From Nonomuraea sp. NBC_00507 (GTDB lineage Bacteria > Actinomycetota > Actinomycetes > Streptosporangiales > Streptosporangiaceae): DNA of 64,000 nt. Location of the stretch: positions 5,394,001 to 5,458,000 of the forward strand of contig NZ_CP107853.1 in the NCBI RefSeq assembly GCF_036013525.1, in the 5' to 3' direction. Below the pieces are notes generated by a model. That model made no database searches. It saw only the letters and a list, made by a program, of their open reading frames with translations, and was not told the DNA's origin. Positions 8,001-44,468 of the stretch are shown here, one piece after another; the first letter of the stretch is position 1, and every line of letters starts with the position of its first letter. A program made the position numbers and the translations under genes.

Positions 8001-8073
8001 GGGGCTATAGCGCAGTTGGTAGCGCGCCTCCATGGCATGGAGGAGGTCTGGGGTTCGAATCCCCATAGCTCCA
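8001..8073 (+). tRNA. tRNA-Ala (anticodon GGC), copy A
   Basis: The 73-nt cloverleaf has acceptor GGGGCTA paired with TAGCTCC (one G-T wobble), D-arm GCGCAGTTGGTAGCGC, anticodon stem CCTCC/GGAGG around loop ATGGCAT giving anticodon GGC, and T-arm GGGGTTCGAATCCCC. The discriminator is A and CCA is not encoded. The gene is identical base for base to the inverted copy at 41597-41669. A TACACT box at 7983-7988 may be the -10 element. Confidence 0.97.
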
Positions 8074-8104
8074 CCTGTGTTCCATATTCGGACATGTGGA
8101 AGAG

Positions 8105-8554: not shown

Positions 8555-9286
8555 ATGCGGGTCGGGATCTACGTGGACGGCTACAACCTCTACTATGGTG
8601 CGCGGGGCCTGTGTGGGCGGGGTACACCAGGCTGGCGCTGGCTCGACCTTCGTGCGCTGGCAGCCGATCTGGTCGCCCGGCGAACCAACTGGCAGGGCTC
8701 ACAAGTCGCGCGGATCGTGTACTGCACGGCTCGCATTGACGGGGCCGACAACCCCGGCGGGCAGCGCGACCAGAGCGTTTACCTCAATGCCCTGCTGGCC
8801 GGCGGCAGTGTCGACCACATCGAGTTCGGCTACTACGTCTCACGGGTGAAGTACGCGCCGCTGGCCGTACGGGATCGCACGGGTCGGCCCGTGCTCGCGC
8901 GCTCAGCCTGGCCGGTGCAGGTCTGCGATTCCCAAGGCACGCCGGTTCCAGACGCGAGCTTCATGGTCTCCTACGCCTATCGGGAGGAGAAGGGCTCCGA
9001 CGTCAACGTGGCCTCCCATCTCCTGCTCGATGTCTTCACCGGTGTCATCGACGCCGCAGTGGTCATCTCCAACGACAGCGACTTGCGCTTTCCCATCGAA
9101 CAGGCACGTCAGCGAGTTCCGGTCGGACTGGTCAACCCCAGCGGCAACTACCTCGCGGGCGCGCTGCGCGGGCAGGCCTCGGATGGCGTGGGGCGGCATT
9201 GGTGGTATCAACTGACCGCAGCCGATTTGACCAAGTGCCAGCTCCCCTCGGTCGTCGGCGCCTACACTCGGCCGCCGGACTGGTGA
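8555..9286 (+). CDS. NYN-domain (PIN-like) nuclease
   Basis: A 243-residue protein with the NYN fold signature: VDGYNLYYG at the N-terminus, [14 protein letters not shown] near residue 150 and [14 protein letters not shown] near residue 173, which supply the acidic metal-binding residues of this RNase family. NYN proteins are predicted endoribonucleases acting in RNA processing or phage defence. The ATG at 8555 is selected because TACGGT (8543-8548) lies 6 nt upstream, consistent with a leaderless start; the frame extending back to 8096 crosses the tRNA-flank repeat. It stands alone next to an integration scar, which suggests arrival by transfer, and is followed by a good terminator. Confidence 0.88.
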
Positions 9287-9793: not shown

Positions 9794-10267
9794 CTAAGCG
9801 TCGTACCGGGCCAGCTCCTCGGGCGTCGGGGGCTCGAAGATCTTCGCCCAGCGGTCGAGCAGGTCGCGGGTGATCGGCACTGTGCCCCAATCGCCGGCCG
9901 CGTTGCGGCTCTCCAGGCGGCGGTGCAGTTCCTCCAGGGGCACGGCGAGATAACGCAGCTCGACGGCCGCGCCCAGGGCACGCGCGCCGAGCCGCATCGC
10001 CTCGCGTTCTTCGCGCGACCAGAAGCCGTACTCCAGGATGACGGTCTGGCCGAGTCGCAGCAGGTCCTGCGCGTGCCGCCAGAGTTGCCTCTCCAGCCGG
10101 TCGCGGGCCGGCTCGTCGTAGAGGTCGACGCCGAGGTGGGTGAGCCATTCGTCGGGGCAGAGACGAACGGCCGGGAGCTCGGTGGCCAGCCGCCGGGCCA
10201 GCGTGGTCTTCCCCGAGCCGGGCAGTCCGCAGAGCAGGATCAGCCGTCCCGGCGGTGTCGTATGCAC
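9794..10267 (-). CDS. Small P-loop kinase (AAA/zeta-like ATP-binding protein)
   Basis: A 157-residue protein with a Walker A motif GLPGSGKTTLARRLA at residues 14-28, a CPDEW segment after strand 2, and a lid-like arginine-rich helix (SREEREAMRLGARALG) typical of the small AAA_33 kinase group that includes zeta-toxin and aminoglycoside-phosphotransferase-like kinases. The acceptor substrate is unknown. It starts at GTG 10267, 3 bp after the stop of the THEP1-like gene, so the two NTPases are co-transcribed. No antitoxin-like partner is visible, so a toxin role is not supported. Confidence 0.78.
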   Translation of the reverse strand: MHTTPPGRLILLCGLPGSGKTTLARRLATELPAVRLCPDEWLTHLGVDLYDEPARDRLERQLWRHAQDLLRLGQTVILEYGFWSREEREAMRLGARALGAAVELRYLAVPLEELHRRLESRNAAGDWGTVPITRDLLDRWAKIFEPPTPEELARYDA

Positions 10268-11858: not shown

Positions 11859-12046
11859 GTCCCTCCTTCGGTGTTCATGGAGAAGAACGGCCGGCCGGCC
11901 CGCCGAGTTCCGTCCCGCGTCCCGGCCAGGGCGTCCTCGCCTCCGGAACTGGTCCTGGGCTTTCCGCCCGGAACTGGATCTACGGTCTGTCCGGTCGTCC
12001 GGCGTACCGTAAGGGAGGCCTGCGAGAAGGGGAAGGACCTCCAGTC

Positions 12047-12808
12047 ATGATCGTGATCGCCCATCTGAGCGATATCCACATCGGCGCCACACCCGGCAGC
12101 GTCGATCGCGCCGACGCCGTGATGCGCTATCTCGACGCCCTGCCCGGGGATCTCGACGCGGTGCTCGTCACCGGCGACATCGCCGACCACGGGGTCGCGG
12201 AGGAGTACGAGGAGGCACGCAAGCTGCTCACTTCACGCCACCCCGTCCTGGTCGGTCCCGGCAATCACGATGTGCGGGAGGAATTCCGCCGGGTGCTGCT
12301 CGGTGAGCCGGCCGACCCCGGCGGGGAGCCGATCAACCAGGTTTACCGCAGCTCCAAGGCGGTCTACGCGATGTGCGACTCCTCCATTCCGCCCCGTCAG
12401 AACCCGGGGCTGCTGGACGATGAGACGATCGCCTGGCTTGAGGGTGTGCTGGAGGGGGAGCGCGAGCTGCCGGTGTTCGTCGCGTTCCACCATCCGCCGG
12501 TGGTGCTGCACAGCCCGATCGTGGACGCCATCAGGCTGCGGCGGCCCGAGCCCTTGGAGTCGTTGATCGCCCGGCACCCGAACGTGGCCGCCGTCCTGGT
12601 CGGGCACGCCCACACGGCGGCCGCCACCACCTTCGCCGGCCGTCCGCTGCTGGTCGGGCCGGGGGTCATCTCGACGCTGAAGCTGCCGTGGGAGGAGGGC
12701 GGGACGTCCCCGGAAATCTGCGCCGACTACGACTTGCCTCCGTCGATCGCCTTCCACGTCCTCGACGACGACGGCCGCCTGACGACCCACTACCGAGTGA
12801 TCCAGTAA
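12047..12808 (+). CDS. Calcineurin-like metallophosphoesterase (CpdA-type)
   Basis: A 253-residue enzyme with all metallophosphoesterase motifs in order: D9-x-H11 (SDIHIG), GDIADH with D44 and H48, GNHD at 72-75, FHHPP near residue 147 and GHAH near residue 187. This arrangement matches class III nucleotidyl cyclic phosphodiesterases such as CpdA, which hydrolyse cyclic nucleotides or related phosphodiesters with two metal ions. ATG 12047 follows GAAGGGGAAGGACC. The frame is open upstream from 11834 but without family similarity. The gene is monocistronic and is followed by the minisatellite region. Confidence 0.9.
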   Translation: MIVIAHLSDIHIGATPGSVDRADAVMRYLDALPGDLDAVLVTGDIADHGVAEEYEEARKLLTSRHPVLVGPGNHDVREEFRRVLLGEPADPGGEPINQVYRSSKAVYAMCDSSIPPRQNPGLLDDETIAWLEGVLEGERELPVFVAFHHPPVVLHSPIVDAIRLRRPEPLESLIARHPNVAAVLVGHAHTAAATTFAGRPLLVGPGVISTLKLPWEEGGTSPEICADYDLPPSIAFHVLDDDGRLTTHYRVIQ

Positions 12809-34124: not shown

Positions 34125-34151
34125 CGGAAGCTGACAGGTAAGCCCGGCACG

Positions 34152-34553
34152 ATGAACCGCATGACCGCCAAAGGCACCTTCGACACCGCAGACTGGAACG
34201 CCAAGCCGCCTTACGAGGACCGCGACGGCGTCACCCTCGGACTTGTGACCATGTCCAAGACCTTCCACGGGGACCTGACCGGCACCAGCGTCGTCACCTT
34301 GCTGGTGGCGAGCACTCCGGTGGAGGACTCGCGCTCCTACGTGGCGCTCGAACGCATCGAGGGCACGCTGCACGGCCGATCCGGCAGCTTCGTCGTCCAG
34401 CACAACGCGGTGAGCGACCAGGGTGAGCAGTCGCTGCGCATTTCCGTGGTGCCGGACTCGGCGACGGGGGAGTTGCGCGGCCTGAGGGGCGAGATGGGCA
34501 TCGTCATCGGCCCGGACGGCGGGCACTTCTACACCTTCGACTACCGGCTCTGA
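34152..34553 (+). CDS. DUF3224 domain protein
   Basis: A 133-residue protein matching the DUF3224 pattern: GTFDTADWNAKPPYE near the N-terminus, KTFHGDLTGTSV, YVALERIEGTLHGRSGSFVVQH and SGTGELRGLRGE-like GELRGLRGEMGI near residue 112. The family forms a small beta-barrel of unknown function. An alternative start is ATG 34161. It lies 27 bp after the F420-type oxidoreductase gene and may be co-transcribed with it. No signal peptide is present. Confidence 0.88.
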   Translation: MNRMTAKGTFDTADWNAKPPYEDRDGVTLGLVTMSKTFHGDLTGTSVVTLLVASTPVEDSRSYVALERIEGTLHGRSGSFVVQHNAVSDQGEQSLRISVVPDSATGELRGLRGEMGIVIGPDGGHFYTFDYRL

Positions 34554-34606: not shown

Positions 34607-36301
34607 TCAGGTCACATCGAGGTTGAACAGGAACCCCATGGAATCCTCCCGGATGCGTTCGACGGTGTCGTAGAACAACCGGGCGGCCAGGTCCTTGTAG
34701 TGGGCCCGCGGGTCCTGCGAAGGTTCAGGGACGAATCCGACGGACAGATATTCCAGCGCGATCAAGTGCTCCTGCCAGGCTCTGTCGGTGACCGAGATCC
34801 ACACCCGGCGCGCCACCTCGGCGGCGAGGTCCTCGCCGAGGTCGTGCCGACGGCGCCGTAAGGCCGCCTGCGCGTCGGTCCGGACGCGTTCGATGACCTG
34901 CTCCCGCTCGCCGGTCAGGTCGTCTTCCGTCAATCGTGTGGGGTACAGATCGTGCAGGTGCCGGTGGAGGCCATGAGCGTCCGGGTGAAACATGGCCACA
35001 TAACGGTCGACGACCGAGTCCAGCGTCCCAGGCACCCAGTCGCCGTCCTCGCCGTGCAGGGCCGCCCTCCGTCGCGCGTAGATCGTGTCCCGCTGAATGC
35101 GGCGCACTTCCGTGAATTCGAGCAGGTCAGCGATCCATTGGCGAGCGGAGCGTGCGGTCGGGCCGTCCGGAGCGGGTAGGACGTCGTCGTCATGCGTGAT
35201 CATGACCACCGTCGCTCCGGCGAGAGCGTCCAGCATCGACGCGTGCGGGCCGGCCGTCGGCGACAGGCCGACCAGCGTGTCGTAGGTCCGGTAGTAGTCC
35301 CAGGGCAGGATCTCTCCGAGCGTCTGGGTCTCGTCGGTGATCTCGAGCCCTTCCTTCGCCTCCAAGGCATGCCGGATTTCCGCAGGAACATCACCCACGA
35401 CCGCGCCTTTGCGAACGGTGTAGTCGCGGTTCACGTGGTAGCAGTGGGCCGCCGCGAGTGCCTCCTCCACCCGGCGGCGCCGGATGAGGGTGAGAGGGTG
35501 CACACCATGGTCCAGACCCAGATGATCGAGGCCACGCGGGGTCAGCCGGGCCTGCCGTCCGGAGACGTGGAAGTGTTCGCCCGGCCGCAGGTATGGCACA
35601 CGCTCACGGGAGTCGCGATATTGGTCCGGCCGGCTCTCGGTGCGGCTGACGACAGCCGGGGACCTGCCGTGCTGGATGAGGATGCCGTCGATCCCATCGA
35701 GGATCGCGACCTGGCGGCCCCGCTGAACATACTCGTCGACCTGCCATGCCAGGTGGTCCCGCACGTAGTCGTAGCACAGCTCGTAGGCCGGGCTGTAGAG
35801 AACATCCGCCCCATACGCCTCCTTACGTTCCTCCGGCGTTGACCGGTCGGCGAGGAGCGCTGCTCGCAGCCCCAGGCGGTCGTACATCAGGGTGAACCGT
35901 TCGAAGTCCCGATCGGCAGGCTGCAGGCCGGTGACGACGTGCACGTCCGAATGCCGCACGGCGTAAACGCACGCGGCTAGCGCGGCCGCCATGGACCTGT
36001 CGGCGGCGTCCTTCACATCCGCGACACAGCCGTCGCAGAGCACGGCCGCGGCCGTCAGGTGCGCGGGGCGGACCGGCCCGAGGCTTGCCCGGACGGCCGC
36101 CTCCCGCGCCAGCGCCAAGGCCTCCACCGTCATGTCCGTACCCGACCCGAGCCGGCGACGCAGGCCAGACATGGCCGCAGGAAGATCGACATGAGTGAGC
36201 TCGTCCTGCTCCTCCACGCCCGCCATCACACGCGCCCACCGATCTGGCGTCCAATCTGTCGCCATGGCCGTATGAAACCACCGGCGGCACCATCGCTCCA
36301 T
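34607..36301 (-). CDS. SecA-derived protein lacking ATPase motifs and motor domain 2
   Basis: A 564-residue protein built from pieces of SecA. HVVTGLQPADRDFERFTLMYDRLGL and RSTPEERKEAYGADVLY correspond to the NBD1 block after Walker A; QVAILDGIDGILI replaces the Walker B/DEVD region. YHVNRDYTVRKGAVV and HALEAKEGLEITDETQTL match the pre-protein cross-linking domain, and YYRTYDTLVGLSPTA the end of NBD1. About 250 residues of NBD2 are absent. The chain resumes as scaffold/wing-like RRIQRDTIYARRRAAL, DRAWQEHLIALEYLSVGF and a terminal SMGFLFNL. The GEGKT-type Walker A is missing. It probably cannot move polypeptides by ATP hydrolysis. ATG 36265 is an alternative start. It is divergent from the SNF2 gene. 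Confidence 0.8.
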   Translation of the reverse strand: MERWCRRWFHTAMATDWTPDRWARVMAGVEEQDELTHVDLPAAMSGLRRRLGSGTDMTVEALALAREAAVRASLGPVRPAHLTAAAVLCDGCVADVKDAADRSMAAALAACVYAVRHSDVHVVTGLQPADRDFERFTLMYDRLGLRAALLADRSTPEERKEAYGADVLYSPAYELCYDYVRDHLAWQVDEYVQRGRQVAILDGIDGILIQHGRSPAVVSRTESRPDQYRDSRERVPYLRPGEHFHVSGRQARLTPRGLDHLGLDHGVHPLTLIRRRRVEEALAAAHCYHVNRDYTVRKGAVVGDVPAEIRHALEAKEGLEITDETQTLGEILPWDYYRTYDTLVGLSPTAGPHASMLDALAGATVVMITHDDDVLPAPDGPTARSARQWIADLLEFTEVRRIQRDTIYARRRAALHGEDGDWVPGTLDSVVDRYVAMFHPDAHGLHRHLHDLYPTRLTEDDLTGEREQVIERVRTDAQAALRRRRHDLGEDLAAEVARRVWISVTDRAWQEHLIALEYLSVGFVPEPSQDPRAHYKDLAARLFYDTVERIREDSMGFLFNLDVT

Positions 36302-36365: not shown

Positions 36366-38525
36366 ATGGAGTCATGGTCCACGGGGGACGTCCGGAGCTT
36401 GTTACGCCGGGCGGTGCGGCTGGCCGGCGACGCGCGGGAGCTCCTCGACGAGCATGACAAGGCGGTGGCGGAGGTCCGTGCCGCGCTCGAGCCGCTGCGC
36501 GGGCGGCATGCCCGGGCGGAACTCGCCGCCATGCCGGTTTCCCGGCTGAAGGACGTCACAGGCGGACGGCTGCGATTCGGGGCGTTGGAGGAGGCCGGCT
36601 ACACCACCGTGGTCAGCGTGCTCGACGCGACGGCGTACGAGCTGCAGAAAGTGCCCGGCGTCGGGCCGCAGACCCGATGGAAGGCGCAGAGAGCGGCCCA
36701 GCGCATCGCGCAGGCCGTGCGCGACTCCAAGATCGCTCACATCGACGTCGAGAGCCGGGACGCCGACACCACGCGGTTGCTCATCGCCCTGCACCGGTTG
36801 GTCGTCGCCGGTCCCGACCTGCCGCGTGCTCGGCACACTGCCGAGGTGGTCGTGCAGCGGCTCGACCGGTTGATCCCGCACGCCCGGCCCCTGAGCAATT
36901 GGTTACGCAGAATGTTCTCGGGAAAGCGGCGCCGCGCCAGGGCCGAGGAGGCCACGGAGCGGATCGCCGGCCTGCTGGCCGACGAGACCGAGACTAGGCT
37001 GCTCATCGCCCAGGCCACCACCGATCTGCTGCGGCCATTGCCGGATGGGATGCAGGCGTGGATCGACTTCGAGATTCGCGCCGCCGACTACTACAACCTC
37101 CTGGCGGAGCTGTCCGCCCTCGCCGCGCCGGACCGGGCCGCCGCGGAAGGGTTTCTGCCTGCAGACCTGGCGGAGCAGGTCAGGGAGCATGAGCTCGACG
37201 ACAGTCTGCGGCGGGTTTCGCTCCGGGGATACCAGGCGTTCGGCGCGCGGTTCGCGCTCGTCCAGCGCCGGGTGATCCTCGGTGACGAAATGGGATTGGG
37301 CAAGACGATTCAGGCCATTGCCGTTCTGGCGCACCTGCACGCCAACGGCACGACGCATTCCTTGGTGGTGTGTCCGGCGAGCGTACTGATCAACTGGCTG
37401 CGGGAGATCGAGGCCCGCAGCTCCTTAAAGGCCTATCGGCTGCATGGCGATGAGCGGCCCCTGGCGCACGCCGCCTGGCGGGAGAACGGCGGGGTCGCGG
37501 TCATCACGTTCGACGGGCTGCACCGGCTGGACCTCGTGCCGCAGATGGGGATGCTCGTCGTGGACGAGGCGCACTACGCCAAGAACCCGGAGACCCGCCG
37601 CTCCAAGGCGGTGGCCCGGTGGTGCCGTGTGGCCGGGTGGGCGCTGTTCATGACCGGCACGCCGATGGAGAACCGGGTCGAGGAGTTCCGCGCTCTGGTG
37701 GATCACCTGCAACCCGGGTTGTTTTCCAAGATCGAGCTGGGCGACGGGATCGAACGGGCGCAGGAGTTCCGCCGCGCCGTCGCGCCCGTCTACCTGCGGC
37801 GCAACCAGGTGGACGTGCTGACGGAGCTGCCCGAGCTGGTCCACGTGGACGAGTGGGAGGAGTTCAGCGCCGCCGACGCCGCCGCCTACTGCCAGGCGGT
37901 GGAGTCGGGGTCGTTCATGGCGATGCGCCGCGCCGCGTACGCGGTGCCGGAGCGGTCTGCCAAGCTGGAGCGGTTACGCGAACTGGTCGACGAAGCGGCT
38001 CGTACCGGGCTCAAGGTCGTCGTGTTCTCCTATTTTCGCGATGTTCTCACCACCGTCGGCGCGGCCATCGACTCGCCGATTCATGGGCCGCTCCGTGGCG
38101 ACCTCGGACCCGAACGCCGCCAGGCGGTGGTCGACGCTTTCACTGCGGCGCGGGGGCACGCGGTGCTGCTCGCGCAGATCCAGACCGGCGGGGTGGGGCT
38201 CAACCTGCAGGCGGCCTCGGTCGTCATCATCTGCGAGCCGCAGGTCAAGCCGACGGTGGAGAGCCAGGCCGTGGCCCGCGCCCACCGCATCGGCCAGGTG
38301 CGCCGGGTCCAGGTGCATCGGCTGCTCACGCCCGGCAGCGTGGACGAACGGCTGCTGCGGATCCTCTATGCGAAGGCGGAGCTGTTCGACGCCTACGCCA
38401 GGCGCAGCCACCTCGCCGAGTCCACGCCCGAGGCAATCGATGTCTCGGACGAGGCCCTGGCCGAGCGGATCGTCAAGGAGGAGCAGGAACGCCTCACCGC
38501 CGCGGCGAAGCCTGCGGAAACGTAA
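36366..38525 (+). CDS. SNF2-family helicase-like ATPase with N-terminal HhH
   Basis: A 719-residue SF2 translocase. A helix-hairpin-helix (ELQKVPGVGPQTRWKAQRAAQRI, residues about 92-114) precedes the motor. Motor motifs are GDEMGLGKTIQ near residue 306, VDEAHYAKNP near 400 (DEAH), MTGTPMENRVEE, and in the second RecA lobe QTGGVGLNLQAAS and ARAHRIGQVRRVQVHRL. The absence of nuclease or HNH motifs suggests DNA remodelling or translocation only. ATG 36366 has no Shine-Dalgarno; TACCTT (36353-36358) lies 7 nt upstream, consistent with a leaderless start. It is separated by only 64 bp from the divergent SecA-derived gene. Confidence 0.9.
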   Translation: MESWSTGDVRSLLRRAVRLAGDARELLDEHDKAVAEVRAALEPLRGRHARAELAAMPVSRLKDVTGGRLRFGALEEAGYTTVVSVLDATAYELQKVPGVGPQTRWKAQRAAQRIAQAVRDSKIAHIDVESRDADTTRLLIALHRLVVAGPDLPRARHTAEVVVQRLDRLIPHARPLSNWLRRMFSGKRRRARAEEATERIAGLLADETETRLLIAQATTDLLRPLPDGMQAWIDFEIRAADYYNLLAELSALAAPDRAAAEGFLPADLAEQVREHELDDSLRRVSLRGYQAFGARFALVQRRVILGDEMGLGKTIQAIAVLAHLHANGTTHSLVVCPASVLINWLREIEARSSLKAYRLHGDERPLAHAAWRENGGVAVITFDGLHRLDLVPQMGMLVVDEAHYAKNPETRRSKAVARWCRVAGWALFMTGTPMENRVEEFRALVDHLQPGLFSKIELGDGIERAQEFRRAVAPVYLRRNQVDVLTELPELVHVDEWEEFSAADAAAYCQAVESGSFMAMRRAAYAVPERSAKLERLRELVDEAARTGLKVVVFSYFRDVLTTVGAAIDSPIHGPLRGDLGPERRQAVVDAFTAARGHAVLLAQIQTGGVGLNLQAASVVIICEPQVKPTVESQAVARAHRIGQVRRVQVHRLLTPGSVDERLLRILYAKAELFDAYARRSHLAESTPEAIDVSDEALAERIVKEEQERLTAAAKPAET

Positions 38526-41592: not shown

Positions 41593-41596
41593 GTTG

Positions 41597-41669
41597 TGGA
41601 GCTATGGGGATTCGAACCCCAGACCTCCTCCATGCCATGGAGGCGCGCTACCAACTGCGCTATAGCCCC
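41597..41669 (-). tRNA. tRNA-Ala (anticodon GGC), copy B
   Basis: This 73-nt gene is identical over its whole length to tRNA-Ala at 8001-8073 but on the opposite strand. Acceptor, anticodon (GGC) and T-arm are as described there; CCA is not encoded. The 5' flank GCAA is also shared. A GATAAACT box about 20 bp upstream may act as -10. Confidence 0.97.
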
Positions 41670-43296: not shown

Positions 43297-43452
43297 TCAG
43301 CGGCCGGGCCGGTGACTCAAGCGAGCACAAACCGCGATCGATACGTGATCAGTTGTGACAGTTGGTGCCACCGAGGCGTCAGTTCCGGGCGGCCGGCGCA
43401 GCCCCTGGGCCATGAGCATGACCAGGACGATCAGGACCAGGTAGGCGATCAC
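43297..43452 (-). CDS. 51-residue remnant, likely start of an isoprenylcysteine methyltransferase-like gene
   Basis: The small frame starts at GTG 43452, overlapping the polyketide synthase stop (GTGA). It encodes one hydrophobic helix (IAYLVLIVLVMLMAQGL) and then unrelated residues before stopping at 43297. In actinomycetes a type III polyketide synthase gene is often followed by an isoprenylcysteine-carboxylmethyltransferase-like membrane protein whose first helix looks like this. About 120 residues of such a protein are missing. It is probably a truncated gene, but a genuine small membrane peptide is not excluded. Confidence 0.35.
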   Translation of the reverse strand: MIAYLVLIVLVMLMAQGLRRPPGTDASVAPTVTTDHVSIAVCARLSHRPGR

Positions 43453-44468
43453 CAGTGCAGCAGGAGCAACTCGGCGGAGAAGCCCGGCCCCAGGGCGAGG
43501 AGCACGGCGGGCGCGTCCGGCCGGGCCTGGGTCTCCTGCAGCACGTGGAGCACCGAGACCGACGACAGGTTGCCGTGCTCACGCAGCGAGCGCCACGTGA
43601 CGTCGAGGGCCCTGGACGGCAGGCCGAGCGTGTCCACGATCTTCTCGATGACCTTGGGCCCGCCGGGATGGCAGATCCACGTGGCGACCTGGTCCGGGGT
43701 CAGGCCGTAGTCGGTGAGAAAGAGCCGGATGTCGGCGGCCAGCGCCTGCTCCACGAAGGCGGTCAGCTCCGGGTCCAGCACGATGCGGAATCCGCGGTCG
43801 CTCACCTCCCAGCCCATGAGGTGCTCGGTCCCGGGGTAGAGGCGGCTGCGGGTGGCCACGACCTCGGGTCCGGGCCCGCGCCCGGTCGCCACGACGGCCG
43901 CCGCGCCGTCCCCGAACAGGCCGCTGGCCACGAGGTTCGCGATCGAGGTGTCGTCGCGCTGGATCGTCAGTGAGCACAACTCCACGCACACCAGCGCCGC
44001 GGCGTGTCCCGGCCAGCCGCGCAGGTAGTCGTGCAGGCGCGCCAGCCCGGACGCGCCGGCCGCGCAGCCGAGGCCGAACACGGGCATCCGCTTGACGTCC
44101 GGCCGCAGCCCCACGCGCTGGGCCAGCCGGGCGTCGAGCGAGGGCGTGGCCAGGCCCGTGGTGGAGCAGAACAACAGGTGGTCGATCTTCTCGGGGCGTA
44201 CGCCGGCCTTGTCGAGCGCGCCGCGCAGCGCCTGCTCGGTCAGGTCGAGGGCGATCTCGGCGTACATGTCGTTCGCGCGGGCGAAGGAGTCGAGCTTGGC
44301 GTAGTCCTCCAGCGGGAGGGCCAGGTTGCGGCCCGTCACGCCCGTCGCGGCGTGGAAGCGCCGCAGGAGCTCCTCGTCGCAGTCGGTCAGCCGGGAGAAC
44401 GCCTCGGTGATCTCCTCCTGGTCGTAGCGGTTTTCCGGCAAAACCGTCTGTACACCCGAAATGTGCAT
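43449..44468 (-). CDS. Type III polyketide synthase (chalcone/stilbene synthase-like)
   Basis: A 339-residue ketosynthase homodimer-type enzyme that condenses malonyl-CoA units on a starter CoA. The catalytic Cys is C135 in FGLGCAAGASG; His is in WICHPGGPK near residue 269 and Asn in EHGNLSSVS near residue 301. The GLFGDGAAAVV and C-terminal ALGPGFSAELLLL blocks are typical. Products of bacterial members include alkylpyrones, alkylresorcinols and tetrahydroxynaphthalene; which one applies cannot be told. ATG 44468 follows GGAGTG. It is divergent from a GlxA-type regulator across 42 bp, which may control it. Confidence 0.93.
   Translation of the reverse strand: MHISGVQTVLPENRYDQEEITEAFSRLTDCDEELLRRFHAATGVTGRNLALPLEDYAKLDSFARANDMYAEIALDLTEQALRGALDKAGVRPEKIDHLLFCSTTGLATPSLDARLAQRVGLRPDVKRMPVFGLGCAAGASGLARLHDYLRGWPGHAAALVCVELCSLTIQRDDTSIANLVASGLFGDGAAAVVATGRGPGPEVVATRSRLYPGTEHLMGWEVSDRGFRIVLDPELTAFVEQALAADIRLFLTDYGLTPDQVATWICHPGGPKVIEKIVDTLGLPSRALDVTWRSLREHGNLSSVSVLHVLQETQARPDAPAVLLALGPGFSAELLLLHW

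Follow-up and report, generated by a model that had tools for sequence, protein, structure and literature searches.

A predicted SecA-like pseudo-ATPase lacking most of the second motor domain in Nonomuraea sp. NBC_00507

SecA is the ATP-driven motor of bacterial protein export. In a stretch of 64,000 nucleotides from the soil actinomycete Nonomuraea sp. NBC_00507 (contig NZ_CP107853.1, positions 5,394,001 to 5,458,000; hereafter the window), a gene was found whose product resembles SecA and appears to lack the motor.

34607..36301, minus strand: motor-less SecA-like gene of 564 codons (552 aa from the probable start at 36265)

The plus-strand reading of 34607-36301 contains stops, and it is the minus strand that is open over 564 codons, so that the intact frame of 564 residues claimed in the initial annotation was recovered, with its strand assigned as minus. 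The true start may be the in-frame ATG at 36265, as the protein-database entry P0001 is the 552-aa form, identical from that methionine onwards. A 26-bp block across this ATG (36260-36285) is identical in the genome G312, where the gene-wide DNA difference is about 27%; the block was not found in Sphaerisporangium perillae and would be in frame if translated, and the evidence for this start is for these reasons not decisive.

The initial annotation depended on a profile match to SecA, and both Pfam domains of SecA were matched strongly, SecA_DEAD with E=1.6e-43 and SecA_SW with E=1.6e-20, the latter over profile positions 28-199 of 200. The weakest domain is the cross-linking domain (SecA_PP_bind E=0.00098; 20.1 bits, below the cut-off of 23.5). 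With the equivalog models of SecA, whose cut-offs are 800 and 814 bits, scores of 178 and 212 bits were obtained. The best PDB match by phmmer was SecA1 of Mycobacterium tuberculosis (1nkt), in two collinear stretches, 31-368 and 392-563, flanking NBD2. Pfam, the phmmer comparison with SecA entries of the PDB and an alignment with the SecA1 of the same genome (P0031) all confirmed the proposed order of NBD1, cross-linking domain, NBD1 and scaffold/wing. This SecA1, to which the SecA-like protein is 36% identical over 527 residues, served as the reference for all losses described below, with residues of the SecA-like protein in the following list given in 564-aa numbering unless stated otherwise.

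35993..36016, minus strand: degenerate Walker A VKDAADRS, residues 96-103, aligned to SecA1 MKTGEGKT 101-108
35684..35698, minus strand: degenerate Walker B DGIDG, residues 202-206, aligned to SecA1 DEVDS 208-212
35252..35269, minus strand: altered motif III GLSPTA, residues 345-350, shared unchanged by all four lineages compared, aligned to SecA1 GMTGTA 381-386
35135..35188, minus strand: linker of about 18 residues (372-389) replacing SecA1 408-648 (NBD2), of low confidence in both structure models
34610..35134, minus strand: helical scaffold and wing, residues 390-564, with a changed and shorter finger tip (SecA_SW 1.6e-20; helices 369-548 in model 2, 552-aa numbering)

Walker A had been described as absent. 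GEGKT is indeed missing, but the element was not cut out: VKDAADRS sits degenerate in its place, with Lys replaced by Arg and Thr by Ser, and the slot reads MRDGAGRS, MKDGRGRS and TKDSEDRS in the relatives. The reading of Walker B as DGID held up, as did the loss of about 250 residues of NBD2, for which the alignment gives 241 SecA1 residues (408-648, most of NBD2) against about 18, with uncertain edges since the aligner scatters the short linker over this range. With this stretch replaced, the NBD2 motifs GRGTD and QLRGRSGRQGD have no counterpart. Further changes concern the Q-motif Gln86 of SecA1, which is His, IDEART (215-220), which is IQHGRS, and the region around DEFTGR (SecA1 327-341), from which 12 of 15 residues are missing. 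At the tip of the two-helix finger, SecA1 has EGIGMRAYAQKDP and the SecA-like protein VGFVPEPSQDP, which is two residues shorter; the conserved tip is thus not found, while helices are predicted and the loop has a pLDDT of 54-64. No counterpart exists for about 24 residues at the N-terminus of SecA1 and 88 at its C-terminus, whereas the C-terminal GFLFNL is kept, as initially noted (residues 556-561). Among the 318 columns invariant in 20 SecA1, 212 are present in the SecA-like protein, 86 are identical, and 71 are identical in all four lineages compared. Judged by its motifs, the protein is a pseudo-ATPase, predicted to have no working motor, and its place within the SecA family is on the side of SecA1.

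Structure prediction agreed with a retained SecA architecture. Model 1 had a mean pLDDT of 71.9 with a confident NBD1 and cross-linking domain (blocks 21 to 360 at 68-96) and a poor C-terminal half, and model 2 reached a pLDDT of 74.9 and a pTM of 0.53 with the scaffold/wing (411-480) at 87-94, its other four models lying at 57-67. In Foldseek, SecA structures ranked first; model 2 covered B. subtilis SecA (3jv2, 1tf5, 1tf2) at a TM of 0.84 by query length and gave a TM of 0.65 against M. tuberculosis 1nkt. As SecA1 rows were included in the alignments of both models, the fold match indicates compatibility and is not independent proof. Residues invariant in the family and equal to the genome's own SecA1 were counted by region, in a comparison of four sequences on which any argument from a conserved surface rests: 16/21 in the scaffold and finger base (471-515), 10/15 in the last segment (516-564), 40/83 in NBD1a, 14/30 in NBD1b and 10/29 in the cross-linking domain, whose conservation among the family members is itself poor, with 29 invariant columns out of 82.

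Regarding descent, the genome of 12.9 Mb carries one ordinary SecA1 (P0031, G000:C1 12.40 Mb; 1254 bits to PRK12904) about 7 Mb away and one SecA2 at 4.39 Mb (1001 bits to TIGR04221) about 1 Mb away. Both are intact and located elsewhere, and the idea of a degenerating duplicate of an adjacent SecA was therefore dropped. A maximum-likelihood tree (33 rows, 530 columns) took in 20 of 28 SecA1 loci and 9 of 19 SecA2-like loci and left out G287 and P0004. In it the motor-less family is a single clade (100/100), and a split supported at 100/100 separates SecA2 from the SecA1 side, where the family falls; the nine SecA2 rows formed one clade (100/100) with the SecA-like protein outside. The family was placed inside or beside actinobacterial SecA1, where long branches meet and the 20 SecA1 form one group at 71/74. 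SecA1 descent agrees with the retention of the helical wing, which is mostly absent from the SecA2 rows. Descent from SecA2 was dropped on account of the wrong clade and the kept wing, and the protein scored 124 bits to the SecA2 model TIGR04221 against a cut-off of 725. Within the family, S. perillae lies outside the three Nonomuraea (97/92), matching the genus names.

An origin from a phage or plasmid was considered and dropped. Plasmid sequences gave no match to the SecA-like protein at the strict limit of E<=1e-40; among 50,697 phage records there were 16 matches, with identities of 25-37%, of which the three annotated ones are labelled SecA and 13 are unannotated, and all are read as ordinary SecA; in viral contigs, 46 stretches fitted a pattern, none was confirmed, and no relative was found.

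Relatives of the SecA-like protein are few. The protein searches scored solely the 7994 candidates (7999 in one search) sharing most words, and of the 27 proteins found four are of the motor-less kind: P0001 (the window's own), P0002 (S. perillae), P0003 (Nonomuraea rosea) and P0004 (a JGI protein). The next-best proteins are SecA_DEAD proteins at <=35% identity, and an alignment search with 30 matches again returned P0001-P0004 as its top four. The copies from the two other Nonomuraea and from S. perillae are 58-61% identical to the window protein, with 79% identity between those of G312 and N. rosea. The genome G162 encodes P0002 letter for letter past the first residue and is presumably that of S. 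perillae. The four lineages compared here are the window, G312, N. rosea and S. perillae, G287 being of the same species as the window. At genome level, the gene was detected in 3 of 54 genomes of the genus, own included and two being one species (E<=1e-60), in 3 of 297 genomes of the family sample, own included (E<=1e-80), in 4 of 345 genomes of the order, with the own species counted twice (E<=1e-75), and in 1 of 396 genomes of the phylum sample, namely the window's own (E<=1e-60); in the genus of G162 it was present in 1 of 11 genomes. Common to all four lineages are Arg and Ser at the Walker A Lys and Thr positions, an Asp-x-Ile-Asp Walker B, GLSPTA and the missing NBD2. The relatives found are not degraded copies beside a normal SecA: they are intact, one belongs to another genus, and the frame is kept with the same NBD2 deletion in four lineages across two genera. 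P0004, which is 95% identical to P0003, misses about 90 residues in frame near the N-terminus, including the Walker-like loop, through either a deletion or an assembly fault.

The claim that the frame is probably selected for was supported by dN significantly below dS in three pairs, although the selection is loose. Against the same species (G287), 13 synonymous and 10 non-synonymous changes gave a dN/dS of 0.26 (Fisher p=0.0026), and the values were 0.50 (p=3e-10) against G312 and 0.39 (p=1e-18) against S. perillae; P0003 and P0004 were left out of these codon tests. No stop occurs in the four DNA copies (window, G287, G312, G162) or in the protein P0003, and none of the marks of a pseudogene (stops, frameshifts, neutral codon change) was found. 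In a neutral simulation, which assumed base make-up and transition bias and contained no indels, 4.3-4.6 stops were expected after 235-260 random substitutions, with 1.2-1.6% of the runs stop-free, and 12% were stop-free after 100 random changes. Together, dN/dS below 1 and stop-free frames indicate that the gene is kept, with relaxed or fast evolution. It is not alone in this, being among the looser-constrained window genes: 13 other window genes compared with the same-species locus had a dN/dS of 0 to 0.40 (DUF3224 over part of its length), with SNF2 and two downstream genes at 0.39-0.40.

The genomic setting of the gene was compared among loci.

34152..34553, plus strand: DUF3224 gene (Pfam), flank on one side
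36366..38525, plus strand: divergent SNF2-type helicase (Pfam), flank on the other side, matched in 32 of 54 genus genomes and thought to lie outside the system

In G252, the place between the same flanks (ALO, LLM, DUF3224, SNF2) is taken by a formamidase-like and a carboxyl-transferase gene, and by tblastn the SecA-like gene was in none of the seven SNF2 loci examined. In G312 its neighbours on the two sides are an AAA_33 kinase and a tRNA-Ala (L014 6325-6398), and the S. perillae copy has a serine recombinase and a borderline PIN-domain gene in its vicinity. When 15 window genes were compared with 10 loci by tblastn, the SecA-like gene was found in L013 and L014 alone and the other 14 genes in neither of these two; by blastn, the sigma factor, MFS, AAA_33 kinase and tRNA-Ala of the window were found in L014, but their place in the window is at 4-12 kb, away from the SecA-like gene. 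The different sites without the same neighbours make it look as if the gene had moved singly. The idea of an operon partner was dropped, as no conserved neighbours were found. Among the flanking genes given to Pfam, no Sec gene was seen, and type I secretion genes (HlyD, OEP or similar) were absent from nine such genes in the window, five in L013 and five in L014. A link to SecY copy number was not seen among six genomes, with two copies in G000 (at 181514-182542 and 9880977-9882002 of G000:C1), G287, G252 and G108 and one in G312 and G162.

Some further observations were made along the window. Its AAA_33 kinase (9798-10252) and a tRNA-Ala (8001-8075, plus strand) enclose a gene with a below-cut-off NYN match (8648-9286, plus strand) in what is the slot of the SecA-like gene in G312. 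The two tRNA-Ala (GGC) genes, 8001-8075 (plus strand) and 41596-41669 (minus strand), are 33.5 kb apart in opposite orientation. Between 34138-34376 of the window and 11926-12206 of the same-species locus L007, the start of DUF3224 is unaligned, with both sides 98-99% identical, and a type III polyketide synthase-like gene with Chal_sti_synt domains lies at 43449-44468 (minus strand).

The explanation favoured here, to which we assign an even chance, is that the SecA-like protein works without ATP as a passive SecA, holding preprotein or sitting on SecYEG or SecA1. With the cross-linking domain and the helical scaffold remaining, the clamp and much of the SecY docking face would be retained; the protein would then hold preproteins, or sit on SecYEG or SecA1, and such holding would slow, buffer or redirect export, the effect being that of a brake or a chaperone-like hold. 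The position of the Walker A lysine is occupied by Arg in all four lineages, and K129 of SecA2 is, as we take it, the Walker A lysine of that protein. The nearest precedent found is a laboratory mutant of the ATP-binding site, SecA2 K129R, which is dominant negative and trapped at SecYEG (PMC6333443). Working SecA has a clamp made of PPXD and HSD with an NBD2 that does not touch substrate, and contacts of SecY loop 8/9 with the PPXD, of the SecY tail with the HSD and of the finger with SecY (PMC6599042).

Against the passive SecA stand the replaced finger tip, the absent N-terminal start and C-terminal tail of SecA1, the low conservation of the cross-linking domain in the family, and the lack of a Sec gene among the flanking genes given to Pfam. 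The cross-linking domain being the weakest match and the finger tip being changed, SecYEG binding is somewhat weakened as an idea. Moreover, clamp closure moves the PPXD towards NBD2 and accompanies tight SecYEG binding (PMC3685266), so that a clamp without NBD2 might be hard to lock, which counts against simple SecYEG docking. For the same reason the K129R precedent is a loose one, since K129R acts in a complete SecA2 with NBD2. The Lys to Arg change may also follow high GC, as four other P-loop-less SecA_DEAD proteins have Arg at this position.

Some of these data fit other readings as well. A SecA-derived fold may have been repurposed outside protein export, with the remodelled NBD1 binding something else; this we consider unlikely, albeit far from negligible. 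The family is set apart from SecA1 by a long stem, with 3.2 changes per column, and new constraints are apparent in 20 columns of NBD1a and 13 of NBD1b that are invariant both in 20 SecA1 and in the family with different residues, an example being Leu-Ser at SecA1 Met382-Thr383. The lack of a Sec gene among the flanking genes examined would also suit such a function, but the scaffold and finger base are mostly made of SecA residues (16/21 family-invariant), and the architecture apart from NBD2 is retained. If the remodelled site still bound ATP or ADP weakly through the Walker B Asp and the loop Arg and Ser, the protein could be a nucleotide sensor that switches shape without turnover. Arg102, Ser103, Asp202 and Asp205 are the same in all four lineages, yet the glycine-rich positions vary (AAD, GAG, GRG, SED), His stands for the Q-motif Gln and the domain that closes the site, NBD2, is for the most part missing, and we regard a sensor as highly improbable.

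That the gene is a relic in slow decay, or mobile cargo, and of little use today appears very unlikely, although several features are in keeping with it: the patchy occurrence (3 of 54 genus genomes, two of one species, and 4 of 345 of the order), the different sites (DUF3224-SNF2 here, tRNA-Ala in G312, a serine recombinase near in S. perillae), the fast change (dN/dS 0.26-0.50), a GC3 of 0.82 against 0.89-0.96 for the neighbouring SNF2, DUF3224, LLM and ALO genes, and the in-frame gap of P0004. What speaks against decay is that the gene is stop-free in four lineages, with differences of about 40% among the window, S. perillae and the pair of G312 and N. rosea (21% within that pair), and that dN/dS is significantly below 1 in the three pairs tested.

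Returning to the passive SecA, a selected SecA relative without the motor halves would separate the binding functions of clamp and scaffold from the ATP cycle, and would be a naturally occurring construct with which SecYEG docking and the holding of preproteins could be studied. If the protein restrains export, it would represent a regulation of Sec of a kind familiar to us from laboratory mutants alone. The stronger proposal of a natural non-motor SecA that would serve as a standing brake or reservoir on Sec export, kept under selection in Streptosporangiaceae as the natural counterpart of the ATP-site dominant-negative SecA, seems quite unlikely. In the open-licence full-text literature, from which most subscription papers are missing, no natural P-loop-less or NBD2-less SecA was seen by title or abstract among the matches listed.

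Compared with known systems, the SecA-like protein shares with canonical SecA1 (P0031) the order NBD1-PPXD-HSD-HWD, the wing, GFLFNL and the side of the tree; unlike SecA1, it is without working Walker A and B or Q motif, without most of NBD2, and without counterparts of the N-terminal start, the finger tip and the SEC-C tail. Like actinobacterial SecA2 (TIGR04221), it is a SecA paralogue alongside SecA1, but SecA2 keeps GEGKT, DEAD and NBD2 and is without most of the wing, whereas the SecA-like protein shows the reverse and belongs to a separate clade (100/100). With SecA2 K129R it has in common the change from Lys to Arg at what is presumably the same Walker A position. K129R is a point mutant of a full-length protein (PMC6333443), whereas a natural family with further losses is present here. 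An extra SecA_DEAD protein of altered architecture is also known from the secondary SecA_DEAD proteins of Planctomycetes, Verrucomicrobia and others, which Kamneva et al. 2015 (PMC4452313) describe as wholly or mostly without SecA_SW and often located next to genes of type I secretion; the SecA-like protein differs from them in keeping SecA_SW and in having no type I secretion genes in the flanks examined with Pfam. Four JGI proteins of 630-643 aa (P0025, P0027, P0028 and P0029) resemble this secondary type: they have no P-loop, no DEAD Glu and Arg at the Lys position, and align through an NBD2-like region without the scaffold. Together with the four members of the motor-less family they make up the 8 of 30 proteins from both searches without G-x-G-K-S/T, a motif present in all 120 SecA1 checked (one alignment took in 8 of the 120 listed SecA1, and another 16 of the 26 other proteins). 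Judging from these sequences, the SecA motor may have been lost at least twice.
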